Assembly (NCBI GenBank): GCA_020628095.1
Contig: JAHDFP010000005.1
Coordinates: 62,001 to 126,000 of the forward strand
Direction of reading: 5' to 3'
DNA: 64,000 bases
Source: Saprospiraceae bacterium
GTDB taxonomy: Bacteria > Bacteroidota > Bacteroidia > Chitinophagales > Saprospiraceae
Shown: positions 3,897-63,814 of the stretch, piece by piece
How positions within the stretch are numbered: position 1 is the first letter of the stretch
Layout: every line of letters begins with the position of its first letter
Translations under genes and position numbers: made by a program
Notes under the pieces: generated by a model
Database searches by the model: none
What the model was told of the DNA's origin: nothing
What the model saw: the letters and a program-made list of their open reading frames with translations, nothing else

Positions 3897-4535
3897 ATGC
3901 ACGACGTTATTATAATCGGTAATGGTGATAACGCAGAAGTTGTCATTGACATCATCAGCGAAATCCATGATATAAATATCATCGGAATTGCATCTGAAAA
4001 TCTTAATAAAGGAGATCAGTTTATGGGATTCCCAGTATTAGGTAATGATCAAGATATAATAAGCTCGACTGATAATAGTGTACAACTCGTCAATGCGGTG
4101 GGCGCCTATAGAAATACAGAAAAAAGGCAGGGCACTTTTGATAAATTCAAACAAGCAGGCTTTACATTCATATCAGTTTTACATCCTAATGTGAGTATCT
4201 CAAGCAATGCCACAATAGGAGAAGGTGTCATCATGTATTCTGGCGTGTCTATTAATACCAATACGACAATAGGCAATAACTGTATACTGGCATTAAACTG
4301 TTCTGTAGGACATCATACACACATAGAGGATCATGTCCTCATATCTGCCGGTGTCAATGTAGGTGCCAATGCAACCGTGGGCGCCAACTCATTAGTTGCT
4401 ATAGGGGCCTCTGTAATATCTGGCGTAAGCATCTCTAAAAACAATCTTATAGGTGCTGGCGCGGTCGTGGTAAAAAATACATCGGAAAATCAAATCCTAT
4501 TTGGTGTTCCAGCAAAACCAATCAATGAAAAGTAA
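3897..4535 (+). CDS. neuD: NeuD/PglD-type sugar acetyltransferase
   Basis: A 212-residue protein. The N-terminal part (about 1-80) starts MHDVIIIGNGDNAEVVIDII, the Rossmann-like PglD_N domain with a glycine-rich loop. A left-handed beta-helix follows (about 95-205) with the motif NCSVGHHTHIEDHVLISAGVNV; the histidine pair is characteristic of the acetyl-transfer site in PglD and NeuD enzymes. It ends GVPAKPI. Its stop overlaps the start of neuB by 11 bases, so the two are translationally coupled. In this setting it probably N-acetylates a 4-amino sugar precursor of the legionaminic type, or O-acetylates sialic acid. NeuD and LegH roles cannot be separated by sequence alone. Confidence 0.8.
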   Translation: MHDVIIIGNGDNAEVVIDIISEIHDINIIGIASENLNKGDQFMGFPVLGNDQDIISSTDNSVQLVNAVGAYRNTEKRQGTFDKFKQAGFTFISVLHPNVSISSNATIGEGVIMYSGVSINTNTTIGNNCILALNCSVGHHTHIEDHVLISAGVNVGANATVGANSLVAIGASVISGVSISKNNLIGAGAVVVKNTSENQILFGVPAKPINEK

Positions 4536-9646: not shown

Positions 9647-11086
9647 ATGCTATTTAATTCCATAGAATTTTTAATTTTCTTCTGCATAGTCTTTGTGGTC
9701 TATTGGTTTGCCCTAAAGAAGAGCTATACCAAGCAGAACATATTCATATTAGTCGCAAGTTATATTTTCTATGGATGGTGGGATTGGCGTTTTCTATTTC
9801 TTATCTCGTTAAGTACGGTTACAGATTATACCATTGGCATATTCATGTCACAAAGCACTACTCAGAAATCGAAAAAAAGATTTCTTTGGTTGAGCCTGAT
9901 GGTTAATCTAGGTCTGCTTGCAATATTCAAGTATTATAACTTTTTCGTTGACAATTTTGTAGAGGCATTTGGATTATTGGGGATCGAGCTTAATGCAAGA
10001 ACACTTAGTATCATATTGCCTGTAGGGATTAGTTTTTATACATTCCAGACACTCAGTTATACGATAGATATATATAGAGGAAGAATAGAACCGACTAAGA
10101 ATTTTATAGCTTTTGCCACTTTCATTAGTTTCTTTCCTCAGCTTGTGGCAGGACCTATTGAGAGAGCCACTAATCTATTGCCCCAGTTTCTCAAAGAAAG
10201 AAACTTTACCACTAATAACGCCATAGATGGATTGAGGCAAATCATCTGGGGACTTTTTAAGAAAGTTGTTATCGCGGATAATTGTGGTGTATTCGTTGAT
10301 GATATATTTACTAATTATGCGGACTATAGTGGTGGTGTCGTATTCCTAGGAGCCATACTATTTGCTTTTCAGTTATACGGTGATTTTTCTGGTTATTCGG
10401 ATATAGCGATAGGCGTGGCAAGAATACTCGGATTCAATCTTTTGCAAAACTTTAAGTTTCCGTACTTCACAAGTAATATGTCTGATTTTTGGGGTCGATG
10501 GCATATATCACTTTCGACCTGGACTAACGACTATATCTTTCTTCCACTTAATACTGCACTTTCTAAAGTGTCTAAGAAATCCATTTATACCAGTCTTATA
10601 ATTACCTTTCTGATATTAGGTCTGTGGCATGGTGCTAACTGGACGTATGTCGTCTTTGGATTGATACATGGTTTGACTGTGGCGTTTGAGTTTTTGACCA
10701 GGAAGCAACGTAACATTTCCAAGAAAAAATATAGCAAGATATTCTCTTTAGGCGGTTGGGCAATAACCATGTTTATATGGTTGCTGAGTTTGATATTTTT
10801 CAGAGCACTTAGTGTGGATCATGCATGGGGCATTATCTCGTCAGTACAGTTGAGTAACTTATTTGACTTTAGTAGTTTTTCATTTAGTACTGACTTGATT
10901 ATAGTTTTAGTATTTATAGCCCTTTTGCTTGCGGTGGAATGGAAAAGCAGATTTTATGAGCATACTCTGGAGAAGTTAGAGCTGAGACTAGGACCTATTC
11001 CCAGGCGATTGACTTATTATTTTCTTGTCTTTGTGATATTAGGATTTAAGGGTAGCGAACAGAACTTTATTTACTTCCAGTTTTAG
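9647..11086 (+). CDS. MBOAT family O-acyltransferase (first copy)
   Basis: A 479-residue multi-pass membrane protein of the AlgI/DltB-like MBOAT family. Recognisable blocks are NIFILVASYIFYGWWDWRF at the N-terminus, LPVGISFYTFQTLSY, FFPQLVAGPIERA, LYGDFSGYSDIAIG and the catalytic histidine in LWHGANWT (His328). It should carry acyl groups across the inner membrane onto a glycan. The paralogue at 36549 keeps the common YIPLGGSR segment just before the catalytic region, whereas this copy has FLPLNTALS instead, a visible divergence. The SGNH partner gene begins immediately after its stop. Transfer of acetyl from acetyl-CoA is the default expectation. Confidence 0.9.
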   Translation: MLFNSIEFLIFFCIVFVVYWFALKKSYTKQNIFILVASYIFYGWWDWRFLFLISLSTVTDYTIGIFMSQSTTQKSKKRFLWLSLMVNLGLLAIFKYYNFFVDNFVEAFGLLGIELNARTLSIILPVGISFYTFQTLSYTIDIYRGRIEPTKNFIAFATFISFFPQLVAGPIERATNLLPQFLKERNFTTNNAIDGLRQIIWGLFKKVVIADNCGVFVDDIFTNYADYSGGVVFLGAILFAFQLYGDFSGYSDIAIGVARILGFNLLQNFKFPYFTSNMSDFWGRWHISLSTWTNDYIFLPLNTALSKVSKKSIYTSLIITFLILGLWHGANWTYVVFGLIHGLTVAFEFLTRKQRNISKKKYSKIFSLGGWAITMFIWLLSLIFFRALSVDHAWGIISSVQLSNLFDFSSFSFSTDLIIVLVFIALLLAVEWKSRFYEHTLEKLELRLGPIPRRLTYYFLVFVILGFKGSEQNFIYFQF

Positions 11087-12004
11087 ATGAAAGAATTTAT
11101 TTATAAGGGCATATCTTTTGTGTTTCCTATTCCATTTTTGGCTTTGGCAGCCTATTTTGTTTTTCCATTTATTCTTGGTGTTTTAAATGGTCCGTCAACA
11201 AAGTTTCAAATAGAAAAGTCTTTCGACTATTTAGAAAGTAAAGATGTTGATTTGCTGATTCTTGGTAATAGTAGAGTATATCGAGGAATCAATCCATCTA
11301 TTATACAAGAGAAGGCCTTTAATTTTGCACATGATAATGACACTTATAATCAGCTTTATTATAAGTTAGTCCATGCCTTGAAAGTGCATCCTGATATGAA
11401 AGAGGTGGTATTAGGTGTTGATTATTTCCAGTTTAGTTTTTTGGCTAAATCTAGAAATTACGCCTATGCCGATGTATTGCCAAAAGAGTATCTCAAAGAT
11501 TACAACGAATCTCAACTTAAGAACAAGTTGTTGCATGTATACAAGACAATTTATCCAGCATACTTCGTCAATAAGCTAAAGCACTCTAACTATAAACATG
11601 CAGTACCTTTTTATAAAGAAAATGGTCAATTCATCAAACCTGGAAAATCGTCTCCTGATGATATGACGGAGAGAGATTTTAACCGTCTTGAGATCCAGAT
11701 AAAGTATTTTGGTTTGATAGTAGATTTATGCAAAGAGAATGATCTTACCTTGTATTTGGTGATGCCTCCGCTCAGAGATAATGAGCTGACAAACTATACC
11801 GAAGAAGAGATAAAAGACTTTAAAAGTTTTATAGGTTCTTATACAACTGATGATAAAGTTCACTATTTGGACTTTTCGGTCAGACATGATTTTGATTTAA
11901 ACGATTTTACAGACCTTTCGCACCTCAATGAGTCAGGAGCAGATGCTTTCTCCACTATGCTGAGGGATGATATTATTCAACTTCGTAACAGTTATAACAA
12001 GTAA
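11087..12004 (+). CDS. SGNH-like membrane-anchored partner of the first MBOAT
   Basis: A 305-residue protein with an N-terminal membrane segment (about residues 8-32) and a periplasmic SGNH-like domain. Block I appears as LILGNSRVYRGI at about 57-68, with the serine in GNSR, and the C-terminal D..H appears as DLSHLNESGA at about 274-283. Proteins of this type (DltD, AlgJ/AlgX-like, WssI-like) work with an MBOAT protein and complete acyl transfer to the polysaccharide outside the membrane. The ATG follows the MBOAT stop with no spacing, so the two are expressed together. The exact acyl group and sugar are unknown. Confidence 0.75.
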   Translation: MKEFIYKGISFVFPIPFLALAAYFVFPFILGVLNGPSTKFQIEKSFDYLESKDVDLLILGNSRVYRGINPSIIQEKAFNFAHDNDTYNQLYYKLVHALKVHPDMKEVVLGVDYFQFSFLAKSRNYAYADVLPKEYLKDYNESQLKNKLLHVYKTIYPAYFVNKLKHSNYKHAVPFYKENGQFIKPGKSSPDDMTERDFNRLEIQIKYFGLIVDLCKENDLTLYLVMPPLRDNELTNYTEEEIKDFKSFIGSYTTDDKVHYLDFSVRHDFDLNDFTDLSHLNESGADAFSTMLRDDIIQLRNSYNK

Positions 12005-13941: not shown

Positions 13942-14514
13942 ATGAGATTACTGATTATCATTTTTGGCTTATGCGCTTTTACTCTTGGATGTAAAGGTGA
14001 TAAAACCGAGGTAACTACACCCACAGCTGAGTCCAATGCAGAAGAAAAGATAGAGACGGTTGCCAAAACAGAACCTACCAACAAATCCACGAATGAGATG
14101 GCATCTAAGCCGCTTACTGGCTCATTAAGTAATCAATACATCCAACTAAAACAAGAGCTAAAGAATGTGGATCAGAAGATGAAAGAAGCGCTAGAGCAAA
14201 GAAAGACTATCAGTAAGCGCCGAGGTGATGTTACCAAACAGTTTTCTGATAAGACAAAGTCTGTCCCAGAAAAACAAAGTTGGGCTGACTCTATGAATCA
14301 TTACAAAGCAAAGTATCAAGAAAACGTAGACATGTATAAGTCTCTTAATACTAAGAAAAAAGAACTGCTCACTAGTATATCAGAAAAGCGCAAGGGCATC
14401 CAGGCGGAAATAAAAGTACTTACAGAGAAAATAGGAGAGACTAAAGACGCTAATCTCAGGAAGACGGTTATTGATGAGCGATTAGAACTTATTAATGTAC
14501 TCAAGGCAAGGTAG
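13942..14514 (+). CDS. Predicted coiled-coil lipoprotein of unknown function
   Basis: A 190-residue exported protein. The N-terminus has a type II signal peptide with the lipobox FTLGC (cysteine at about residue 17), followed by a Thr/Glu-rich linker to about residue 60 and then a long charged, heptad-like helix (LKQELKNVDQKMKEALEQR and onwards) to the C-terminus. It has no recognisable enzyme motif. It would be anchored to a membrane facing the periplasm. Its presence between an amidotransferase and an aldolase gene is odd; a second exported coiled-coil protein occurs at 18970. No function is proposed beyond a possible envelope spacer or scaffold. Confidence 0.75.
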   Translation: MRLLIIIFGLCAFTLGCKGDKTEVTTPTAESNAEEKIETVAKTEPTNKSTNEMASKPLTGSLSNQYIQLKQELKNVDQKMKEALEQRKTISKRRGDVTKQFSDKTKSVPEKQSWADSMNHYKAKYQENVDMYKSLNTKKKELLTSISEKRKGIQAEIKVLTEKIGETKDANLRKTVIDERLELINVLKAR

Positions 14515-18861: not shown

Positions 18862-18969
18862 ACAACTTTTTTGCTCAGAAAAATCACTTTTATTACATAT
18901 AAATATGATTTAAAATTATCTTCGGACAGTAAAAAAATAATTCAATCATTACTCAATCTTAGATCCCTA

Positions 18970-19824
18970 ATGAAAATTCCTATTTTATTCTTGGTCTTAG
19001 CATTCTTTGGCCTCAGTTCTAATTCTGTTGGCCAATCCGCAGATAACAGCAATAGTGCAACAGGCGAGGTAAAAGCTGAAAGCGCCCAAAATGAGACTTC
19101 TGATAAATCTAAAGAAGAAAGACTCGAAGAGTTGCTCGACGAAATAAAAATATACAAGAAAAAAATGAGGGCTCATGACAAAGAAATGCGTGCGCCCCTG
19201 AAAGAAAAAGTTAAAGAATTAGAGGCGAGAATAGAGGAGATAGACGATAATGAGGTAAGGCATCAGCTTTTGGAACAGAAAATGATATTGGATCAAAAGA
19301 TTAATAAAATAGATCGCGCTTTTCCTGAGCCTTTTCATCAATTAAGTAGACAACGAAAAACTTTATTGGCTAAAAGAGATCAGGCGGGTAAAGATACACC
19401 TGAGTTCAAGGCCTATGTTGAGCGTATCAATGAGTTGAAAAAAGAAATTCCTCAGGCAAAAGATATGGAGGAGAAAAAGGCATTAGCTAAAGAGAAGGCA
19501 GAAGTAGAAAAGGAAATGAGAGCCTTTATTAAGGAAGCAAGAGCTGTTGTAAACGCTGAACGTGACGAAGTAATACGCAGGATAAGAGAAATAGAAAACA
19601 CTCCTGAAAGAAACAAGTTAGTCCTAGAACTGAGAGAAGTTATCCATAGGATAATGGATATAGATGATAACGAAGAGCGTCGCCAACTTCTAAAACAAAT
19701 ATCTGAGACTAAGGTGAAGATGAAGTACATCGTCAGAAATGAAAAGAGGCATGAAATAGCCCGTGTGAAGAATGCAATAGAGGCTGAAATTAAAGAATTA
19801 AAGACTGCTCTACGAAAGTCCTAA
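18970..19824 (+). CDS. Predicted secreted coiled-coil protein of unknown function
   Basis: The frame is open from a TTG at 18871, but the ATG at 18970 begins a clean Sec signal peptide (MKIPILFLVLAFFGLSSNS, probable cleavage after the VGQ region), so a 284-residue protein is preferred. After the signal it is nearly all charged helix with strong coiled-coil character. An internal repeat is visible: IDDNEVRHQLLEQK at about 100 and IDDNEERRQLLKQI near 240. There is no enzymatic motif. It interrupts the sugar-enzyme run and has a 108-bp leader, the second longest gap before 57000, so it may have its own promoter. Function unknown. Confidence 0.7.
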   Translation: MKIPILFLVLAFFGLSSNSVGQSADNSNSATGEVKAESAQNETSDKSKEERLEELLDEIKIYKKKMRAHDKEMRAPLKEKVKELEARIEEIDDNEVRHQLLEQKMILDQKINKIDRAFPEPFHQLSRQRKTLLAKRDQAGKDTPEFKAYVERINELKKEIPQAKDMEEKKALAKEKAEVEKEMRAFIKEARAVVNAERDEVIRRIREIENTPERNKLVLELREVIHRIMDIDDNEERRQLLKQISETKVKMKYIVRNEKRHEIARVKNAIEAEIKELKTALRKS

Positions 19825-33314: not shown

Positions 33315-34535
33315 ATGAAAGTACCTTTTTTCAAACCTCTAATAGATGATGATGTCATTGCCGAGGTGAATGACACACTTACAAGAACCACCTGGTTGAC
33401 TACAGGTCCTAAGGTTCGTTTGCTGGAGCAGGAGATAGAAAAGTTATTGGGTATAGCCAATGTGCTTTGTGTTAATTCCTGGACTTCTGGCGCCATGCTC
33501 GCACTCAAGTGGTATGGTGTAGGACCAGATGATGAGGTAATTATTCCAGCCTATACTTATAGTGCAACTGCGCTATGCGCTATGAATTTGGGTGCAAAAG
33601 TGGTGATGGTAGATGTCAAGGATGATTTTACACTTGACCCAGAAAAACTGTTGGAAAATATAACTAATAAGACCAAAGCGATTATACCCGTTGATATAGG
33701 AGGATGGCCCTGTGATTATGATGCTATAAAAAGTATTGTCCAAAGCGAAGAGGTCAAAGGCCGTTTTGTAGCTGAGAACGAAGTACAAACCAAATTAGGC
33801 AGACCTCTATTGGTATCGGATTCGGCTCATAGTATCGGTGCTCTATATAATGGCAAGCCGATAGCACATGCACCTGATATGACCGTGTTATCATTTCATT
33901 CAGTCAAGAATATTACTGCTGGAGAAGGTGGTGGGATATGCTTAAACCTACCAGCCGATTTTGATTCACAAGAATTATATCAGGAGCTTAAAGTGCTTTC
34001 TCTCAATGGTCAGACTAAGACGGCTTATGAGAAGAACAAGGTCGGTGGCTGGCGCTATGATATCATCTATCAGGGATTAAAAATTAACATGCCCGATATA
34101 TGTGCAGCCATAGCTCTTGCCCAAATAAAGAAATACAAAGAGGAGTTGTTGCCAGAGCGACTCAAAATATTTGATAGATATAACCAAAATTTATCTAAAT
34201 ATGAATGGGCCATAATGCAAGGGGTAGAGGATGGCGGTAATAGATCGTCATGCCATCTTTACCTTGTCAGGATAAAAGGAATCACTGAGGATCAAAGAGA
34301 TCAGATGATACAATATCTATCCGAAAACCAAGTAGGGGTCAATGTACACTATATTCCTATGGCCATGCTTAAGTTGTTTAAGTCAATGGGGTATAAAATC
34401 GAGGATTATCCTAAGACTTACGAATTATATGCCAATCAGATAACATTGCCTATTTATAATAATCTGACCTTGGAGCAAGTCGATCATGTATGTGTTATGT
34501 TGGACAAGGCCTATCAGAGTCTCGGAATCTCGTAA
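33315..34535 (+). CDS. DegT/DnrJ/EryC1/StrS sugar aminotransferase
   Basis: A 406-residue PLP-dependent aminotransferase of the sugar type. It starts KVPFFKPLIDDDVIAEV, has CVNSWTSGAMLALKW, the strand PVDIGGWPCDYDA, and the Schiff-base lysine in FHSVKNITAGEGGG (Lys198). Long insertions around 155-175 and NGQTKTAYEKNKVGGWRYDI are like the WcfR group that makes UDP-AATGal in Bacteroides capsules, but I cannot confirm that. It should aminate a 4-keto sugar nucleotide. It is 13 bp after the GT56-like gene and its stop abuts the SGNH gene, so it belongs with the acylation cassette as well. Confidence 0.85.
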   Translation: MKVPFFKPLIDDDVIAEVNDTLTRTTWLTTGPKVRLLEQEIEKLLGIANVLCVNSWTSGAMLALKWYGVGPDDEVIIPAYTYSATALCAMNLGAKVVMVDVKDDFTLDPEKLLENITNKTKAIIPVDIGGWPCDYDAIKSIVQSEEVKGRFVAENEVQTKLGRPLLVSDSAHSIGALYNGKPIAHAPDMTVLSFHSVKNITAGEGGGICLNLPADFDSQELYQELKVLSLNGQTKTAYEKNKVGGWRYDIIYQGLKINMPDICAAIALAQIKKYKEELLPERLKIFDRYNQNLSKYEWAIMQGVEDGGNRSSCHLYLVRIKGITEDQRDQMIQYLSENQVGVNVHYIPMAMLKLFKSMGYKIEDYPKTYELYANQITLPIYNNLTLEQVDHVCVMLDKAYQSLGIS

Positions 34536-35441
34536 ATGAGGCGATTTTTAGTTAAGGTTGCTTTATTTGGACTGTTTGTGATGGTTTTCGGTCTATCTGC
34601 ATTTGTGGTGAACTATCTTTGGATAGATTGGACTAATATAGAGGATTGCGAGTTCCCAGAAAATCAGGATTACGATCTGCTTATACTTGGTAGTTCTAAT
34701 GCCAGTGATATCGCCAGACATTATAAGACTAAGAGAAAAGACCTTAAGACGGCTGCATTCCAGACGGCTGGCGGGGGTGTATTGATCCAGCAATCGTATT
34801 TGGATCTATTTTTTAAGAAGAACAATACGACAAAGAAGATTCTATACATCTTCGATACGCATCTTTTATTCACTGACAAATTTGATTCTCCATCACGGGC
34901 TCGCAAGTTAAAATTTGATAGTGATGTCGTTGCTGTCTATAAAGACAATCTGGGACCAAAGTGGATGTTTAGTCAATTAGCAGAATACTTTAATATGGGT
35001 AAATGGCAATTGCTAGATAAATTCGTATCGCGAGAATTAGAGCAAGCAGATTACAGCAAAGCTTTGCAGGAAGTGAAAGAAAAAGAAGTCATCAAATGGA
35101 TAAAAGATATGTTCGGTGAGTTTCCAGCAAAGGCAGATGACGAAGTAATTAATGTACAGACTGAAAAGATGAATAGTACCATACGAAAGCTGCTAGATTA
35201 CAAAAGTGTGGATGATGTTGTCCTTGTGATTCCTCCTTCGTTGTATGGACAAAAGGATCCAAATAAGAAGGAAACATTAACGTATTTAAACAAGTATAGA
35301 AATAAAATTAATTTTTTCGATACCAGTGAAATTTTTCTTGGTGGTGATTTGTTTAAAAATTTTAAAGATCCAGTCCACCTTAATCAATATGGCGCTGAGA
35401 TACTAGAAAGAGATTATTTGTCTAAATATTTAAAATTATAG
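34536..35441 (+). CDS. SGNH-like (DltD-type) membrane-anchored acylation protein
   Basis: A 301-residue protein with an N-terminal membrane anchor (about 5-28) and an SGNH-like domain. Block I is LLILGSSNASDIARH at about 48-62 and the C-terminal D..H is DPVHLNQYGAEIL at about 279-291, so the serine and histidine-aspartate positions are retained. It begins immediately after the aminotransferase stop and is followed 4 bp later by an acyl carrier protein, a LnmK-like protein and an MBOAT acyltransferase. DltD has the same role next to DltB and DltC in D-alanylation of teichoic acids. I infer a periplasmic acyl-handling role. Confidence 0.75.
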   Translation: MRRFLVKVALFGLFVMVFGLSAFVVNYLWIDWTNIEDCEFPENQDYDLLILGSSNASDIARHYKTKRKDLKTAAFQTAGGGVLIQQSYLDLFFKKNNTTKKILYIFDTHLLFTDKFDSPSRARKLKFDSDVVAVYKDNLGPKWMFSQLAEYFNMGKWQLLDKFVSRELEQADYSKALQEVKEKEVIKWIKDMFGEFPAKADDEVINVQTEKMNSTIRKLLDYKSVDDVVLVIPPSLYGQKDPNKKETLTYLNKYRNKINFFDTSEIFLGGDLFKNFKDPVHLNQYGAEILERDYLSKYLKL

Positions 35442-35445
35442 CCTA

Positions 35446-35667
35446 GTGCAAGAAAAGTTAATAGAGATTATCCAAAAAATAAGAACAGAATCTGGTCTTC
35501 CTGAGATTACCGAATTTAAAGAGGAGATGAGCTTAAAGGACGATTTAGATATAGATTCGATCAGTATGGCGCAACTCATAGCCGAGATTGACCAAAACTT
35601 CAAAGTGGATATAAATGCGGCTGGCCCTGTGCAGACATTTGGAGAAATCCTTAGCAGATTGAAGTAA
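35446..35667 (+). CDS. Acyl carrier protein
   Basis: A 73-residue acidic carrier protein starting with GTG. The phosphopantetheine attachment serine is Ser38 in LDIDSISMAQL, and the length and helix pattern are those of a free-standing ACP (DltC/AcpP size). It lies 4 bp after the SGNH gene, 10 bp before the LnmK-like gene and within reach of the MBOAT gene. It should carry the acyl thioester that the MBOAT protein uses, as DltC does for D-alanine. The main fatty-acid AcpP is expected elsewhere. A second ACP is encoded on the reverse strand at 62756. Confidence 0.9.
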   Translation: MQEKLIEIIQKIRTESGLPEITEFKEEMSLKDDLDIDSISMAQLIAEIDQNFKVDINAAGPVQTFGEILSRLK

Positions 35668-35677
35668 TCCAAGAGAA

Positions 35678-36544
35678 ATGAATATCAATAAAGATATCAC
35701 AATCAATATGCCTCAGATGGCGCTTGAGGCACTTTCCGAGAATTGGTTGTTTAAGGAATTAGGGGCGATGCACTGGGATCTTATCTGTCATGGATTAAGT
35801 ACAAAATCATTTGACCTGAAAAATGATACTGATGATCGGCTCTATGCCACCTTTGTGAGGATCAGGTTGACATCAGAAAAGAACCTAAGCCACTTTATAG
35901 AAAATGACGCAGCTGCAATGGATGGTAGTATCGCTAGATTTGGTAATTCTATGTATTTCAGTAAGATAGACTTTAAGACATCAGAAGTTGCCTTCCACAA
36001 TGAGTTGATGACTACATTTTCTATAAGAAATCATGGAGATAATACCAAGTTAGCTAAGAGTGAACCTCATAATGTGGACAACCAAGTAGAAAATCTAAGC
36101 AAATTACCTGCCATAGGCTCAGAATATAGATTAATCAAAAAGAGAGTTCTCAAGGAGCTCAATCTTGGAAACTTCAAATTTACTATTGATTACGATCAAG
36201 AGCCCATTTTTACTCATACGTACGCGCTTAATCCGTTCATAGATCTCAATGGTGTTAATCTACTTTACTTTGCGGCATATCCCATTATCAATGATGTCTG
36301 TGAGTCCAAGTATTTTAACGAACAATTAGATGGAAGTCGATGGGAGCAGACTTACTATACATCACATAAGGATATTCTATATTATTCTAATTGTAATATA
36401 AATGAACGCATTAAATATGAGCTATTGACGGCGGAGAAGCAAGGTGCGGATTATTTGGTATCTAGTTTATTGAGAAGAGAAAGTGATAATGAAATACTTG
36501 CTCGCGTATTCACTGTGAAATCACCAAAAAGAGAAATCGCATAA
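35678..36544 (+). CDS. LnmK / Pnap_2097-like acyl-ACP-forming protein (double hot-dog)
   Basis: A 288-residue protein. Near the N-terminus it has MPQMALEALSENWLFKELGAMHW (residues 10-32, shown here in part as MPQMALEALSENWLF), and later ALNPFIDLNGVNLLYFAAYP at about 186-205. These match the Pnap_2097/LnmK family as I recall it. LnmK of the leinamycin pathway has a double hot-dog fold and is a bifunctional acyltransferase/decarboxylase that turns methylmalonyl-CoA into propionyl-ACP. Being 10 bp after an ACP gene is strong support. It may load the ACP with propionyl or a related acyl group. The family and substrate are unconfirmed by search. Confidence 0.7.
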   Translation: MNINKDITINMPQMALEALSENWLFKELGAMHWDLICHGLSTKSFDLKNDTDDRLYATFVRIRLTSEKNLSHFIENDAAAMDGSIARFGNSMYFSKIDFKTSEVAFHNELMTTFSIRNHGDNTKLAKSEPHNVDNQVENLSKLPAIGSEYRLIKKRVLKELNLGNFKFTIDYDQEPIFTHTYALNPFIDLNGVNLLYFAAYPIINDVCESKYFNEQLDGSRWEQTYYTSHKDILYYSNCNINERIKYELLTAEKQGADYLVSSLLRRESDNEILARVFTVKSPKREIA

Positions 36545-36548
36545 GTCG

Positions 36549-38006
36549 GTGTTATTCAATTCGATTGAATATTTAATATTTCTTCCTTTAGTCTTTTTGA
36601 CTTATTGGACGATACTCAAGGACAAAACTAAGTTGCAAAACCTTTTTGTCCTAGTAGCAAGTTATGTTTTTTATGGATGGTGGGATTGGAGATTTCTTGG
36701 GCTAATATTATTTAGTACGATAACAGATTACACCTTGGGTCAGGCCATATACAAATCCGATAATGCACTAGCTAAGAAGAGACTACTAATACTTAGCCTT
36801 GTAGTCAATTTAGGTTTACTTGGCTTTTTTAAATATTACAACTTCTTTGTCGAGAACTTCGTTGATGCATTTGGTAGTTTGGGTATAGAGCTTAATGCAC
36901 GCACACTCAGCTTAATATTACCGATTGGTATTAGTTTTTATACATTTCAGACCTTGAGTTATACCATAGACGTATATAGAGAACGACTCAAGCCGACTAA
37001 TGACTTCATTGCCTTTGCGGCATTTATTAGTTTCTTTCCGCAATTAGTAGCTGGACCTATTGAGAGAGCATCCAATTTGCTACCTCAGTTTTTTAAGTCC
37101 AGACAATTTACATACGATAATGGGGTAGACGGGCTACGTCAGATATTATGGGGTCTGTTTAAGAAAGTGGTCATTGCAGATAATTGTGCGGTTTACGTTA
37201 ATTATATTTTTGAAAATTCCGCTGATCTCAATGGTATTACGTTATTAATAGGTGCTGTGTTGTTTGCCTTCCAGATTTATGGGGACTTCTCCGGATATTC
37301 TGACATTGCAATAGGCTCCGCCAAGTTATTAGGATTTAACTTGATGCAAAATTTCAGTTATCCATATTTTTCAAGAGACATTGCTGAGTTTTGGAGGAGA
37401 TGGCATATTTCTTTGTCTTCATGGTTTAAGGATTATTTGTACATACCCTTAGGTGGCAGCAGGCTCGGCAAGTTTTCTACCATAAGAAATGTGTTTATAA
37501 TATTTATTGTTAGCGGATTTTGGCATGGTGCTAATTGGACTTATTTGTTTTGGGGCTTTTTGAATGCAGTCTTCTTCTTACCTCTGTTATTATCTAATAA
37601 GAACAGAAGTAACTTGAACGTCGTCGCTGAAGGAAAGTATATTCCGAAATTGTCCACCGTTTTTAGAATCGCTATCACTTTTTCTTTGACTTGCCTTGCA
37701 TGGATATTTTTCAGAGCCAATGATCTGTCTCATGCCTTTGACTACGTACTAAGTATAATCAGTAATTTTCAAGTAATAAGTCTGCAGGTACCTGGCAGCA
37801 TTAAAGTGCTTGTATTAATATTCCCGCTCATAATATTGATGAATTTAGTGGAATGGTTAGGCAGAGCAAAAAAACATGCATTGGAGCAGATGGAATTAGT
37901 TGTAAAGAATGGGGCGTGTAGATTTGTTGTATACTTATTTCTGATTTTCATAATAGCTGTTTTTGGTGGCAATTTGGATCAAGAATTTGTTTACTTCCAG
38001 TTTTAG
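36549..38006 (+). CDS. MBOAT family O-acyltransferase (second copy)
   Basis: A 485-residue multi-pass membrane protein, paralogue of the one at 9647, with a GTG start 4 bp after the LnmK-like gene. It keeps FYGWWDWRF, GISFYTFQTLSYTIDVY, FFPQLVAGPIERA, GDFSGYSDIAIG, the full DYLYIPLGGSRLG motif that the other copy lacks, and the catalytic histidine in FWHGANWT (His326). DltB is the best known family member that takes its acyl group from a carrier protein. With ACP, LnmK-like and SGNH genes beside it, an ACP-thioester donor is plausible, in contrast to the acetyl-CoA assumed for the first copy. Confidence 0.9.
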   Translation: MLFNSIEYLIFLPLVFLTYWTILKDKTKLQNLFVLVASYVFYGWWDWRFLGLILFSTITDYTLGQAIYKSDNALAKKRLLILSLVVNLGLLGFFKYYNFFVENFVDAFGSLGIELNARTLSLILPIGISFYTFQTLSYTIDVYRERLKPTNDFIAFAAFISFFPQLVAGPIERASNLLPQFFKSRQFTYDNGVDGLRQILWGLFKKVVIADNCAVYVNYIFENSADLNGITLLIGAVLFAFQIYGDFSGYSDIAIGSAKLLGFNLMQNFSYPYFSRDIAEFWRRWHISLSSWFKDYLYIPLGGSRLGKFSTIRNVFIIFIVSGFWHGANWTYLFWGFLNAVFFLPLLLSNKNRSNLNVVAEGKYIPKLSTVFRIAITFSLTCLAWIFFRANDLSHAFDYVLSIISNFQVISLQVPGSIKVLVLIFPLIILMNLVEWLGRAKKHALEQMELVVKNGACRFVVYLFLIFIIAVFGGNLDQEFVYFQF

Positions 38007-38041
38007 TAAGATTAATTAAGAAAAAATAGAGTAAGAAATAA

Positions 38042-39028
38042 ATGAAGAAAGTACTGGTAACAGGAGCAGACGGATTCATAGGAAGTCACTTAGTAGAGGC
38101 ACTGATAGAAGAAGGGTATAAGGTTAAGGCTTTTTGCTATTATAACTCATTTAATAGTTGGGGATGGCTTGATACATTGCCTAAAGATAAACTCGATCAG
38201 GTAGAGATATTTACCGGTGACATAAGAGATCCTAATGGTGTAAAAACAGCAATGCAAGACTGCAAGGAGGTTTTTCACCTAGCAGCACTAATTGCGATAC
38301 CTTATTCGTACCATTCACCTGATTCCTACATACAGACCAATATCTCAGGCACGCTCAATGTACTGCAGGCAGCTCGTGATTTGAATTATGATAGGGTATT
38401 GGTCACCTCTACCTCAGAGGTATATGGTACAGCACAGTACATTCCTATCGACGAAAAGCATCCACGTCAGCCACAGTCCCCTTACTCAGCATCTAAGATC
38501 GGAGCGGACTGTCTGAGTGAATCTTTTTATAGATCATTTGATATGCCCATTACGATCGTGAGACCATTTAATACTTTTGGCCCACGTCAATCAGCTCGTG
38601 CGATAATCCCGACTATAATAGGTCAGTTGGTGAGTGGTAAGTCAGAAATCAAACTAGGCGACCTCAAACCGACGAGAGATTTTCTTTATGTAAAGGATAC
38701 GGCAAGAGGATTTATAGCCATCAGTAAGTCGGACGCACTGATAGGTCAGGATTGTAACATAGCAACTAACTCTGAGATATCTATGGGTGATCTTGTACAA
38801 AACCTCATAGACCAAATCAATCCAGAAGCTAAAGTAGTTACTGATCCTCAGCGCATAAGGCCTGGAAAATCAGAGGTCTATAGACTCTATGGAGATAATA
38901 AGAAGATAATGGAGCATACAGATTGGAAGCAAAAGTATACACTTAGTCAGGGGCTAGCAGAAACCATTAAGTGGTTTTCTAATAAGAAGAACTTAGATAA
39001 GTATAAGACCGATATATACAACGTATAG
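38042..39028 (+). CDS. legB: NDP-sugar 4,6-dehydratase, LegB-like
   Basis: A 328-residue extended SDR. It has VTGADGFIGSHLVEALIEEG at about 6-25 and the segment CYYNSFNSWGWLDTL, which I associate specifically with the LegB NAD-dependent 4,6-dehydratases of legionaminic acid synthesis. The active site is STSEVYG and YSASKIGAD (YxxxK), with RPFNTFGPRQSARAIIPT. In the legionaminic route it converts GDP- or UDP-GlcNAc to the 4-keto-6-deoxy sugar. It lies about 28 kb from the other nonulosonate genes, so the pathway is split. A PIG-L deacetylase and a methyltransferase follow. Confidence 0.85.
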   Translation: MKKVLVTGADGFIGSHLVEALIEEGYKVKAFCYYNSFNSWGWLDTLPKDKLDQVEIFTGDIRDPNGVKTAMQDCKEVFHLAALIAIPYSYHSPDSYIQTNISGTLNVLQAARDLNYDRVLVTSTSEVYGTAQYIPIDEKHPRQPQSPYSASKIGADCLSESFYRSFDMPITIVRPFNTFGPRQSARAIIPTIIGQLVSGKSEIKLGDLKPTRDFLYVKDTARGFIAISKSDALIGQDCNIATNSEISMGDLVQNLIDQINPEAKVVTDPQRIRPGKSEVYRLYGDNKKIMEHTDWKQKYTLSQGLAETIKWFSNKKNLDKYKTDIYNV

Positions 39029-59534: not shown

Positions 59535-60680
59535 CTACTTCTCCACAAAAGCCTTTATATGCCCTATGATATACTCCTGCTCTTCATCGGATAATTCGTA
59601 GAAGACAGGAAGTCTGACTAAGGTGTCCGCATATTGATCACAGTATGGTAGATCGTAATTGACATCATCATATCCCTTGAAGAAGTCACTGCGATGTAAA
59701 GACAGATAGTGAAAGACGCAATGAATCTTTTGAGCCCTCATATAACGTATAAACTCTGATCTACTATCTAAGTCATGGAATAAGAGATAGAACATGTGTC
59801 CGTTCTCTACTGTATAATCTTTGAGCACTGGTAGCTCAAAGATGGTTTGGTTGAGTGCGCTTAGTTCTGAGCGATACCTTTCGACTATTTTTATTCTTTT
59901 GTTTTGTATTAGCTCCAGACACTCTAGTTGCCCATAGAGATAGGCAGCATTAAGCTCTGATGCTAAGAACGAAGAACCCTTATCTACCCATCCATACTTA
60001 TCTACCTCACCACGGAAGAACGCCGCGCGGTTAGTTCCTTTCTCCCATATAATTTCTGATCGGTCGAGGTATTTCTCATTATTGACCACGAGTAGTCCAC
60101 CCTCTCCAGAGATCACATTTTTGGTTTCGTGGAAAGAGTATGCTGAAAAATCCCCAAAAGATCCTAATGGTTTCCCTTTGTAGGTGGAGTCTATTGCTTG
60201 CGCACAGTCCTCTATAAGAAAAAGATTGTATTTGGCGCATAACTCCATGATCGGGTCCATATCACAGGCTTTACCAGCATAATGGACTACCACGATGGCC
60301 TTAGTATTGGGTGTGATACTCTCTTCTATTTTGCTGGCGTCCATATTGGGATGATCCGGCTCAGAATCTACAAATACCAGTTTCGCATTTCTTAGGACGA
60401 AGGCATTAGCTGTAGAGACGAAGGTGTAACTAGGCAATATGACCTCGTCACCCTCTTTGATGTCCGCTAGTATGGCTGACATCTCTAGGGCATCCGTACA
60501 CGAGGTCGTCATAAGACACTTCTTATATCCATACCGCTCCTCAAAGAACCGATGGCACAACTTACTATAGTGACCATTGCCAGATATCTTTTTCCTGTCC
60601 ACCGCATCTTTGATATAATCCAGCTCCTTACCGACGATAAATGGTTTATTGAATGGTATGTCGAATGCCTTATCAGCCAT
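59535..60680 (-). CDS. wecE: dTDP-4-amino-4,6-dideoxygalactose transaminase, WecE/RffA-like
   Basis: A 381-residue PLP aminotransferase, last gene of the reverse operon. IPFNKPFIVGKELDYIKDAVD, TTSCTDALEMSAILADIKEGDEVILPSYTFVSTANAFVLR and the lysine in SFHETKNVISGEGG (Lys187) are specific to WecE, and EKGTNRAAFFRGEVDKYGWVDKGSS is the WecE substrate-binding block. It aminates dTDP-4-keto-6-deoxyglucose to dTDP-Fuc4N. RmlA and RmlB, which would supply that substrate, are not in the window. It overlaps the AMP ligase gene by 8 bases and should act with the GNAT gene at 63059. Confidence 0.9.
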   Translation of the reverse strand: MADKAFDIPFNKPFIVGKELDYIKDAVDRKKISGNGHYSKLCHRFFEERYGYKKCLMTTSCTDALEMSAILADIKEGDEVILPSYTFVSTANAFVLRNAKLVFVDSEPDHPNMDASKIEESITPNTKAIVVVHYAGKACDMDPIMELCAKYNLFLIEDCAQAIDSTYKGKPLGSFGDFSAYSFHETKNVISGEGGLLVVNNEKYLDRSEIIWEKGTNRAAFFRGEVDKYGWVDKGSSFLASELNAAYLYGQLECLELIQNKRIKIVERYRSELSALNQTIFELPVLKDYTVENGHMFYLLFHDLDSRSEFIRYMRAQKIHCVFHYLSLHRSDFFKGYDDVNYDLPYCDQYADTLVRLPVFYELSDEEQEYIIGHIKAFVEK

Positions 60681-62031
60681 CTATTGATTTTCGTACTTTT
60701 TTGAATCTATTAGAATAGTTAATGCCTTCCTTCACATTGATCTTTGTGGGTACCTTATATCGCTCCAGTCGTTCTCTGCAATAATTTCTGAGCGCTCTTA
60801 TCGTTCCTTTCTTATTCTCCGATGATTTTATAACCACATCGGCTACCACAGTCTGACCAGTAATCAGGTGCGATGCACCATAGACAGAGGCATCTAATAC
60901 TTCTGGATTAGTCATCAGTACTGTTTCTACCTCTATAGGCAATAGCTTCTCACCACCGACATTGATAACCTCACTATTCCGCCCTATGATACGGATGTAG
61001 CCGTCATCGGTTTCTTCTACCAGATCACCTGTCTTAAACCATCCGTCATCTGTAAATCTCTGCATAGAAGCATTAAGATAACCCATAATTTGAGTTTTGC
61101 TTCTTAGCCAGAGTTCGCTATCAATGATTTTGTACTCCAGATTAGGGTCATCTATTTTTAAGAAAGTACTGGATGAGGATTTGCTTGATATATTAGCGAT
61201 TCCTGTTTCGCTCGTGCCAAAAGTCTGTAATAACTTCACTTTGGGGAAAGACTCTTTGAGCCTTAGTAAGAGGCTTTCAGACATTTGCTCTGTACCGTAA
61301 GTAATCATCCGCAGTGAGCTTAGGTCATACTTATCTAGTGCACCACTCATAAGAATAAGATTAAGAAAAGTAGGGGAGGCAGGTAGTATTTGCACCTTAT
61401 TTTTCTCTATAAGCTCACAGATATAGTCTGGGTCTCGGTGTGTCGGTAAGATCAGTGTCGCCGTCATCGCCAGACAATTAAACAAAGTATTAAGTCCACC
61501 GATATGATCAAACATCAGAAAGACCAACAACCTCATAGACCTAATCTTCTTACTCTCAAAACTTGATAATAGATTATCGAAGTTATGGATCATGGCCTTG
61601 GGCTTCCCTGTGCTACCACTGCTGAATAAGATCAGTCCTGCATGATTACCCTTGACAAGATTTCTTATTAGCTCATGCTGATCTTCATTACTATTTTCTT
61701 CTTCCTTAATGACGAGTTCACCATCAGAAAGACATTCTATGAGGAGGTCATTATTTAGTTCGGCTTTCTTTTCTTCGAGATTAACGGCACTTTCTTTAGT
61801 GACTGGAGCGATGATGCACTTTTGCTTAATGAGCGCAATTAGTAAGGAGATAGAAAAAAAACTGTAATCAGAGTATAAGATCACCGTCTTGTTCTGACAA
61901 TCTATAGACGATAGCTGTTCTGTATATTTATCAATTTGCTTACTCAGAGCCGCATAATGGTATTCTTCCTGATCGTGGACCAGAGCCACTTTGTCAGGGT
62001 TGTCGTCGAATCTTTGAAGTAACCATTCCAT
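60673..62031 (-). CDS. Adenylate-forming acyl ligase (ANL superfamily)
   Basis: A 452-residue enzyme, shorter than the usual 500-550. The P-loop is FSSGSTGKPKAMIH near 134-147, then the A5 motif TFGTSETG, WFKTGDL (A7), and GRNSEVINVGGEKLLPIEVE (A8 hinge). The C-terminal catalytic lysine lies near the end in SNRFKKVRK. It activates a carboxylic acid with ATP and passes it to CoA or to a carrier protein. The ACP at 62756 and reductase at 62036 stand just upstream in the same operon, so loading of the ACP with a short hydroxy or keto acid is a plausible inference. Confidence 0.85.
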   Translation of the reverse strand: MEWLLQRFDDNPDKVALVHDQEEYHYAALSKQIDKYTEQLSSIDCQNKTVILYSDYSFFSISLLIALIKQKCIIAPVTKESAVNLEEKKAELNNDLLIECLSDGELVIKEEENSNEDQHELIRNLVKGNHAGLILFSSGSTGKPKAMIHNFDNLLSSFESKKIRSMRLLVFLMFDHIGGLNTLFNCLAMTATLILPTHRDPDYICELIEKNKVQILPASPTFLNLILMSGALDKYDLSSLRMITYGTEQMSESLLLRLKESFPKVKLLQTFGTSETGIANISSKSSSSTFLKIDDPNLEYKIIDSELWLRSKTQIMGYLNASMQRFTDDGWFKTGDLVEETDDGYIRIIGRNSEVINVGGEKLLPIEVETVLMTNPEVLDASVYGASHLITGQTVVADVVIKSSENKKGTIRALRNYCRERLERYKVPTKINVKEGINYSNRFKKVRKSIDG

Positions 62032-62035
62032 AGCC

Positions 62036-62740
62036 TTACATTACGCCACCCAGATAGATGGTCTGTCCAGTAATAAACTGACTTTCTGGTTTTATAAAAA
62101 AGTCAATCACATTAGTCACATCATCGAATGTTCCAAATCTCTTTAGACTTTGATGACCTATGAGTTCATCTATTTTGTCTTTTGGTACATTTTTTATCAG
62201 GTCGGTTTCTATAGGCGTCGGACCTACACAATTGACTGTTATACCAAACTCTCCTAACTCTTTAGCTGATATTCTTGTCAGACTTTCTACGGCTGCCTTG
62301 CTGGAAGCGTAAAGGGCCTCTCCATCCAGATTAAGTGGAACAGCTACTGTAGAAAAATTAATGATCCGTCCCGCTTTCTTTTTTATCATCACCTTTGCCA
62401 CTTCTCTGCTTGTAATAAAAGACCCATAATAATTCGTCTCGAAAATAGATTTCATAGCCGAGTATGGCGAAAGCAAGAGATGGTTCATAGAGGCCATTCC
62501 TGCATTATTAATGAGTACGTCTATATGTCCATGCGCTTTTTTTATAGAGCGCACCATCCTGACAATTTCCTTTTCTTCTTTCAGGTCCACCTGATGATGG
62601 CTATACTTAGAATGCTCAAGATCGACAGGCCTGCGACTACAGCCTATGACAATATGTCCTTGACTGAGATAATGCTCTGTCAGGTGCTTACCGATGCCTT
62701 TTCGGGTACCTGTGATCAGTATGATTAGCTGATTGTCCAT
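62036..62740 (-). CDS. Short-chain dehydrogenase/reductase, FabG-like
   Basis: A 234-residue classical SDR. The cofactor loop is ITGTRKGIGKHL at about 8-19, NNAG is at about 77-80, the catalytic serine lies in NFSTVAVP and the YxxxK pair is YASSKAAVE at about 143-151. The order matches 3-oxoacyl-ACP reductases and related sugar or acyl reductases. It is 4 bp from the AMP ligase gene and 15 bp after the ACP gene on the reverse strand. Its position suggests reduction of a 3-keto group on an ACP-bound acyl chain, as proposed for VioR-type enzymes. Confidence 0.88.
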   Translation of the reverse strand: MDNQLIILITGTRKGIGKHLTEHYLSQGHIVIGCSRRPVDLEHSKYSHHQVDLKEEKEIVRMVRSIKKAHGHIDVLINNAGMASMNHLLLSPYSAMKSIFETNYYGSFITSREVAKVMIKKKAGRIINFSTVAVPLNLDGEALYASSKAAVESLTRISAKELGEFGITVNCVGPTPIETDLIKNVPKDKIDELIGHQSLKRFGTFDDVTNVIDFFIKPESQFITGQTIYLGGVM

Positions 62741-62755
62741 CAGTTAGAGACTAGC

Positions 62756-63055
62756 TTATTGGTCTTGAGCATTTATAAGTTCCTGTATATAATTAGAGAT
62801 GCTGCGCACTGTCCTGAAAGGGGATATCCTTTGACTCATAGCCCTCTCTGTGGCAATGGTCACCTGCTTACCAAAATTGTCCTCTATCTCCATCTCCAGA
62901 TCTGCTATCAAGGTCACCAGATTAATACTATCTAATCCGCCGTTAGGACCATACAACACGGAATCTTTATCAGGGTTATGATACATATCAGATTCTATGT
63001 CTTCACCCAGTAGTTTGACACATTCTATGACGACCTTTTCTATTTCCTCTATCAT
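62756..63055 (-). CDS. Acyl carrier protein (second, reverse strand)
   Basis: A 99-residue carrier protein, longer than the usual 75-80. The phosphopantetheine serine is Ser43 in GGLDSINLVTLIADLEMEI, with IEEIEKVVIECVKLLGEDIES before it and a C-terminal helix (RTVRSISNYIQELI). The extra length is a loop of about 15 residues near 58-73. It is 3 bp after the GNAT acyltransferase gene and 15 bp before the reductase gene, so it probably carries the acyl group that the GNAT protein transfers to an amino sugar. Confidence 0.88.
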   Translation of the reverse strand: MIEEIEKVVIECVKLLGEDIESDMYHNPDKDSVLYGPNGGLDSINLVTLIADLEMEIEDNFGKQVTIATERAMSQRISPFRTVRSISNYIQELINAQDQ

Positions 63056-63058
63056 CGT

Positions 63059-63814
63059 TTACTTGATGTATTTATGAAAACCGAAACTTGAGTTAGAAAT
63101 ATTGAATCCATAAGACAAGTACAAATTGATGGTCGCAATATTGGCTGCCGATACTTTGACATCTACAACATTACGCACGCCTTGACTCACCAGATAATTC
63201 AATAACGAGCTCCAAAAATAAGGAGAAACCAATCCAAAATCTCTACGACTACCTCCTAAAATCAGTTTGGCTTTTGACCCCATTATTTCTAAGGCCATAA
63301 AGCTAATTAATTGATTATCAGATTCGTACACTATTATCTCTTTGCCTTGCTCTACAAGATCGTCTATCCAGTGCCAATGTCTTTTGTGATTGATCTCTGG
63401 TGAGACCATGATATCTTCGTAAAATCTACCGTAATCAAACGCCGTTACTGCGATATCTTTTATAGCCTCTATATCCGATGGTGTATAACTTCTTATATCA
63501 AATAGCTTGTCCGGAAATTTAAGTTTGTGCAGTCTTCTCTTGTTAAGTGTCAGCGTTGTCTCCACATATCGGAATCCTCTGTCTTGGATATGATGTCTGA
63601 GCATTCTTTCCTGAGAATCTATGCGAGTATAGACCAGCTCGTAAGATTCCGAAGAGATTGCCGATTCCAATTGATCGAGCAAGGAAGCCACGTCTTCTTC
63701 ACTAATATTAGGACTAAAGTGGATCTCTCCCGTTTTCAGACCAAAGGCACGGGCATCCCAGGGAGTGGGCTTGAGTATCGCATAATTGCTCTTGTCGATA
63801 CTAATCTTCGTCAT
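63059..63814 (-). CDS. GNAT acyltransferase, WecD-like
   Basis: A 251-residue protein. The opening NYAILKPTPWDARAFGLKTG matches WecD, dTDP-fucosamine acetyltransferase (WDxxxFG near the N-terminus), and the C-terminal GNAT half has FDYGRFYEDI, LISFMALEIMG, KLILGGSRRDFG and SAANIATINLYLSYGF. WecD makes dTDP-Fuc4NAc from dTDP-Fuc4N and acetyl-CoA. With an ACP, ligase and reductase next to it, the acyl donor may instead be an acyl-ACP. Its 5' end overlaps the partial GT2 gene by 14 bases. Confidence 0.78.
   Translation of the reverse strand: MTKISIDKSNYAILKPTPWDARAFGLKTGEIHFSPNISEEDVASLLDQLESAISSESYELVYTRIDSQERMLRHHIQDRGFRYVETTLTLNKRRLHKLKFPDKLFDIRSYTPSDIEAIKDIAVTAFDYGRFYEDIMVSPEINHKRHWHWIDDLVEQGKEIIVYESDNQLISFMALEIMGSKAKLILGGSRRDFGLVSPYFWSSLLNYLVSQGVRNVVDVKVSAANIATINLYLSYGFNISNSSFGFHKYIK

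Follow-up and report, generated by a model that had tools for sequence, protein, structure and literature searches.

In a 64,000-nucleotide stretch of contig JAHDFP010000005.1 from a Saprospiraceae bacterium (positions 62,001 to 126,000, analysed over its full length and called the window here), four genes at 34536-38006 encode an SGNH-like protein, a free-standing acyl carrier protein (ACP), a homologue of the leinamycin enzyme LnmK and a membrane-bound O-acyltransferase (MBOAT). This cassette is a real, recurrent and coherent unit, probably a variant of MBOAT/SGNH envelope acylation in which a LnmK-family protein charges the carrier. We give a probability of about one in two to the full reading, namely carrier-dependent MBOAT/SGNH O-acylation of an extracytoplasmic glycan with propionyl as the likeliest acyl group. 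All four genes lie on the + strand with intergenic gaps of 4, 10 and 4 bp, as the first-pass annotation of this DNA had described them.

In the proposed mechanism, the LnmK-family protein would take a 2-carboxyacyl-coenzyme A (CoA), most likely (2R)-methylmalonyl-CoA, decarboxylate it via Tyr56 and the Asn191 loop, and load the phosphopantetheine of the adjacent ACP with a short acyl group, most likely propionyl; it would thus replace DltA of the Dlt pathway as the charger. The acyl-ACP would dock at the cytoplasmic side of either the cassette MBOAT (36549) or a second MBOAT of the same locus (9647), whose histidine would pass the acyl group to the tyrosine of its own C-terminal FXYXXF shuttle. 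The SGNH-like protein would accept the group on a serine and transfer it to a hydroxyl of the locus's polysaccharide product. Family, fold and residues strongly support the charging step. We infer the docking and transfer by an MBOAT from genomic association, and the SGNH step, established for PatA/PatB and Dlt, would apply to this cassette by analogy.

The LnmK-family protein and its partners

The protein encoded at 35678-36544 (+, 288 amino acids) is a double-hot-dog homologue of the LnmK acyltransferase/decarboxylase family. It scored 153.0 bits over its full length against TIGR04098 (curated hidden Markov model cut-off 100) and 123.8 bits against TIGR04099/Pnap_2097, marginally under the cut-off of 125, and a close relative at locus L033 reached 126.7 bits with the latter model. 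Since a single-sequence phmmer search of the PDB returned nothing relevant, a profile of 17 relatives was needed, which matched LnmK structures (E-value about 3e-14) and gave no convincing hit to any other family. With an AlphaFold2 model (predicted local distance difference test, pLDDT, 89), all seven LnmK entries ranked first in Foldseek and gave Z scores of 26.4-26.9 in VIA-align, followed by acyl-ACP thioesterases at 21.5 and less.

In the profile alignment, the active-site residue Tyr62 of LnmK (6x7l numbering) pairs with Tyr56 (codon 35843-35845), invariant in alignment A2, and the LnmK segment DVNGVGLLYFASY pairs with DLNGVNLLYFAAY of the window protein. Asn191 (codon 36248-36250), in the loop DLNGVNLLYFA, is invariant across the 17 sequences and in LnmK, and the alignment suggests that it is the decarboxylation-loop asparagine; LnmK, like MadB (Asn45), decarboxylates using a loop asparagine (PMC8666670). 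Membership of the LnmK family is firm because the model score, the PDB profile match, the kept residues and a confident structure with LnmK matches first all point to it. The LnmK-type call of the first-pass annotation was upheld, and a check of the catalytic residues against LnmK found both in place. It is highly probable that this family member loads the ACP. The closest named relative of the gene lies in a Cyclobacteriaceae metagenome-assembled genome, which by itself points to a Bacteroidota host. No relative was found in phage records, and the literature library searched contained no paper on Pnap_2097 or TIGR04098.

The ACP gene (35446-35667, +, GTG start) encodes 73 amino acids that match PF00550 at 26.3 bits, above the cut-off, with the phosphopantetheine serine predicted earlier, Ser38, in a DSI motif (codon 35557-35559). 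Against the DltC equivalog it scored 14.5 bits, the cut-off being 68. An ACP of the same subtype also precedes LnmK at loci L007, L009, L033, L034 and L035.

The MBOAT encoded at 36549-38006 (+, 485 amino acids, GTG start) was likewise correctly named, with 105 bits to PF03062, both conserved histidines (His286 in RWH and His326 in WHG) and the C-terminus FVYFQF with Tyr482. Its closest solved matches are DltB structures (6bug, E 8e-25). The DltB equivalog cut-off of 375 bits was missed by this MBOAT (147 bits) and by MBOAT 9647 (171 bits). The C-terminal FXYXXF motif is common to all sampled MBOAT relatives; in PatA it is the acyl-tyrosine shuttle, whereas in Dlt the shuttle motif sits on a separate protein, DltX, and acyl-CoA, with no carrier, is taken to be the donor in MBOAT/SGNH systems other than Dlt (PMC12148441). 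Because the shuttle is fused to MBOAT 36549 while an ACP lies in the operon, this protein is best described as PatA/AlgI-like with a Dlt-like carrier. The cassette is not Dlt proper: its earlier description as Dlt-like holds for the DltB-type MBOAT and the carrier in the operon, but not for the DltB and DltC cut-offs, a separate DltX or a docking helix in MBOAT 36549.

The first gene of the set (34536-35441, +, 301 amino acids) occupies the DltD/PatB position and encodes an N-terminal hydrophobic helix, a GSS motif (Ser54) and a DPVH motif (His281). Its SGNH/DltD-like assignment is weak and rests on these features: the PF19040 score was 17 bits against a cut-off of 27, no match was found among PDB sequences, and the predicted model was poor (pLDDT 36). 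Two relatives encoded beside MBOAT genes retain Ser54 and His281, and one of the two belongs to an ACP-MBOAT-SGNH operon. A relative (78 bits) adjoins ACP-MBOAT at locus L095.

Recurrence of the gene set and possible exchange of chargers

LnmK-family genes are rare (present in 3 of 395 genomes at phylum level, 9 of 398 at family level and 2 of 395 at class level), yet an MBOAT gene repeatedly lies beside ACP-LnmK, so the set exceeds what chance would bring together. The linked ACP was identified with a dedicated ACP profile or, where fused, as the N-terminal domain of the LnmK protein. ACP and LnmK directly adjoin an MBOAT in five genomes from four genera and in three gene arrangements. The operon order at L033 and L034 is MBOAT-ACP-LnmK-SGNH; ACP-LnmK is divergent from the MBOAT at L007 and L009, with an SGNH-like gene nearby; and SGNH-ACP-LnmK stands at a contig end at L035. 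Across seven LnmK loci, an MBOAT was located within 10.5 kb in six and at about 10.7 kb in the seventh, and no family besides LnmK and MBOAT was present in more than three. The idea that every MBOAT locus carries an ACP was considered and rejected: for 29 close relatives of MBOAT 36549, neither an ACP nor LnmK was encoded within about 1.5 kb of any of them. The search for the same neighbourhood elsewhere, proposed with the original annotation, thus found ACP and LnmK together with MBOAT and SGNH-like genes.

Further LnmK relatives, at L012, L014, L017, L029 and L072, belong to clusters of polyketide or fatty-acid-like type. Beyond the phylum, recurrence was followed in plasmid records only. 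On a Burkholderia plasmid (L016:7971-10942) a LnmK/Pnap_2097 homologue immediately precedes methylmalonyl-CoA mutase in an MSMEG_0565-0572 nitrogen-starvation cluster.

Inspection of further loci in the same family revealed ACP, MBOAT and SGNH-like genes in the company of other chargers. An FkbH-type protein accompanies such genes at L095:4585-11348, a set that additionally holds MaoC-like and enoyl-reductase-like genes, and in a second set of L035 (8877-15123); these sets probably represent carrier-dependent glycan acylation with a C3 acid from glycolysis. At L098:8221-13330, a DltA-like adenylating enzyme, a GNAT, an ACP, an SGNH-like protein and an MBOAT stand in a row, and the genome concerned (G733) contains both this Dlt-like set and the LnmK type. 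Fusions of ACP with an AAC(3)-like (Antibiotic_NAT) domain adjoin or lie near an MBOAT at L096:2351-4905, L099:1170-3689 and L098:420-3866. Since ACP-MBOAT-SGNH sets occur with FkbH-type and DltA-like chargers as well, the simplest reading is that chargers are swapped on a shared type of membrane machine, and the earlier proposal that LnmK stands in place of DltA gains support from them.

More tentatively, and with slightly less than an even chance, carrier-charged MBOAT/SGNH acylation may form a modular class well beyond Dlt. In this bacterial family, the interchangeable chargers would be LnmK (supplying propionyl or acetyl by decarboxylation), FkbH (supplying a C3 acid from glycolysis) and a DltA-like adenylating enzyme, through which surface glycans would gain acyl groups that acetyl-CoA cannot supply. 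A mechanistic paper of 2025 assigned a carrier protein to Dlt among the MBOAT/SGNH pathways, and acyl-CoA to the others (PMC12148441). The present cassette would be a second carrier-dependent kind, charged by a polyketide-type decarboxylase, and the LnmK/Pnap_2097 family would gain a role outside polyketides. The predicted chemical mark is a base-labile propionyl ester (+56) on a bacterial surface glycan, and ACP plus LnmK beside MBOAT/SGNH would serve as a gene marker for finding further such systems. That the pairing with LnmK recurs in related bacteria suggests that machines which decorate sugars can exchange one acyl supplier for another.

The candidate receiving MBOATs, the probable acyl group and alternative routes

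It is fairly probable that the acyl-ACP is used by an MBOAT, and the window offers two. The second (9647-11086, +) ends in FIYFQF and is followed by an SGNH-like partner (11087-12004, +, 305 amino acids) with GNS and SHLN motifs, a motif-level assignment. In an MBOAT tree of 33 sequences, the ACP/LnmK-linked MBOATs of L033, L034, L007 and L009 formed one clade with MBOAT 9647 (98/96), which joined the ACP-linked MBOAT of L095 (95/88). When the L033 MBOAT was searched against 219 family genomes, the four best matches were all in LnmK genomes, MBOAT 9647 included, and the next came from G860, whose MBOAT is ACP-linked. The cytoplasmic loop of DltB bears the DltC-docking residues (PMC11035591); the corresponding loop is longer and basic in the clade of 9647, and short and AlgI-like in MBOAT 36549. 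The clade tied to ACP and LnmK elsewhere is thus that of 9647, which lies outside the four genes of the first-pass annotation. Because operon contact favours 36549 and descent favours 9647, the acceptor of the acyl-ACP may be either one or both.

Several points weigh against carrier-dependent acylation through this cassette. MBOAT 36549 is placed among ACP-less MBOATs in the tree, it lacks the DltC-docking helix of DltB, and its loop resembles those of carrier-less MBOATs; on these grounds, it may use acyl-CoA. The SGNH assignment is at motif level. As L033 is related to L034, and L007 to L009, shared ancestry reduces the recurrence to about five independent arrangements. ACP is fused to LnmK at L004, L030 and L036; the fused gene at L004 overlaps a NeuD/PglD-type sugar acetyltransferase gene, and the genome with L030 (G784) has no MBOAT match. 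In a surface-polysaccharide region of the Roseobacter litoralis plasmid pRLO149_63 (L013:8320-9777), LnmK is fused to a hexapeptide-repeat acyltransferase. With these fused proteins, a cytosolic use is also possible. Finally, with an identity to LnmK of only about 15%, the window protein may differ from it in substrate choice.

Given ACP charging and use by an MBOAT, propionyl is reasonably probable as the acyl group by analogy with LnmK. The host genome contains an intact methylmalonyl-CoA mutase gene, and the family was matched in nine of 10 other LnmK genomes, the exception being 66% complete; this common enzyme permits propionyl without proving it. In the literature library searched, no relevant precedent for propionylated glycans was found. 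The low identity to LnmK also leaves room for the same MBOAT/SGNH route with a different substrate, in which the LnmK homologue would turn malonyl-CoA or malonyl-ACP into acetyl-ACP and the glycan would be only O-acetylated, the carrier raising affinity or gating supply with the acyl group unchanged. All cells that synthesise fatty acids contain malonyl-CoA. Furthermore, the hot-dog enzymes MadA/MadB yield acetyl-ACP with an analogous asparagine loop, and E. coli GlmU prefers acetyl-ACP as its donor (PMC8666670). Nevertheless, we consider acetylation unlikely, although it is the strongest competitor: the characterised family member is methylmalonyl-specific, as titles of PDB entries and the works cited in PMC8666670 indicate, the mutase is present as described, and where an MBOAT could take acetyl-CoA directly there would be little advantage in a carrier and loader of its own.

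A further possibility, also unlikely, is that a cytoplasmic sugar N- or O-acyltransferase, of the hexapeptide NeuD/PglD type or a GNAT, consumes the acyl-ACP during nucleotide-sugar synthesis, with the MBOAT adjacent merely through shared membership of a polysaccharide locus. The L004 overlap, the Roseobacter fusion and G784 all suit this route, as do the two NeuD/PglD-type genes in the window at 3897 and 50639. Yet the MBOAT is the only constant neighbour of free-standing ACP-LnmK, which it adjoins in five genomes, either within one operon or divergently, and a NeuD-type gene adjoins ACP-LnmK in none of the window, L007, L009, L033 and L034. Rejected as very improbable was the reading in which the double-hot-dog protein is inactive or works as an acyl-ACP thioesterase, with no decarboxylative loading. 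FatA-type thioesterases were the next structural matches (Z about 20), but LnmK was clearly first (26.9 versus 21.5) and TIGR04098 is over its cut-off. The protein also retains Tyr62 and the DxNG-LLYFA signature and lacks the thioesterase motif DxNxHVNN.

The polysaccharide locus and comparison with known systems

The cassette is embedded in a long polysaccharide locus that runs largely in one direction and includes NeuB-type, NeuD-type, LegB-type, glycosyltransferase and polymerase-like genes, and an aminotransferase gene directly precedes the SGNH-like gene with a gap of 0 bp. Two charged, coiled-coil-like proteins with signal-peptide-like starts are encoded inside the locus at 13942-14514 and 18871-19824 (+). 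A second carrier-protein set of co-directional genes occupies 59535-63814 (-) and comprises a GNAT-like gene, a FabG-like short-chain dehydrogenase/reductase, an AMP-dependent ligase, a DegT aminotransferase and an ACP-like open reading frame of 99 amino acids (62756-63055, LDSINL).

Among known systems, LnmK/LnmL of leinamycin biosynthesis (PDB 4hzn-4hzp and 6x7l-6x7p; TIGR04098) shares with the cassette the fold, the equivalents of Tyr62 and the asparagine loop, and a dedicated free-standing ACP alongside. It acts in a polyketide synthase context, whereas its distant window homologue lies in a polysaccharide locus beside MBOAT and SGNH-like genes.

The Dlt system of teichoic-acid D-alanylation (DltA, DltB, DltC, DltD and DltX) likewise has a carrier, an MBOAT and an SGNH protein (a predicted one in the cassette) encoded together in an operon, and its DltB provides the closest solved structures for the cassette MBOAT. 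However, Dlt has the adenylating DltA, of which there is none at 33315-39028 of the window, where the LnmK-family protein takes its place, and a separate DltX, whose motif is here fused to the MBOAT. The cassette MBOAT and ACP are also far under the DltB and DltC cut-offs, the DltC-docking helix is absent, and the window locus is of the type that builds Gram-negative glycans.

The O-acetyltransferases PatA/PatB, AlgI/AlgX and WssH resemble the cassette in the catalytic histidine of the MBOAT, the C-terminal FXYXXF shuttle and the predicted SGNH partner, but they are described as lacking a carrier because acyl-CoA is their donor (PMC12148441), whereas the cassette has an ACP and a charger in the operon. 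The malonyl-ACP decarboxylases MadA/MadB, which feed GlmU (PMC8666670), similarly employ a hot-dog enzyme with an asparagine loop to supply a short acyl-ACP for a cell-envelope sugar; they differ from the cassette in their single hot-dog, their acetyl product, the cytosolic N-acetylation of GlcN-1-P and the absence of an MBOAT.

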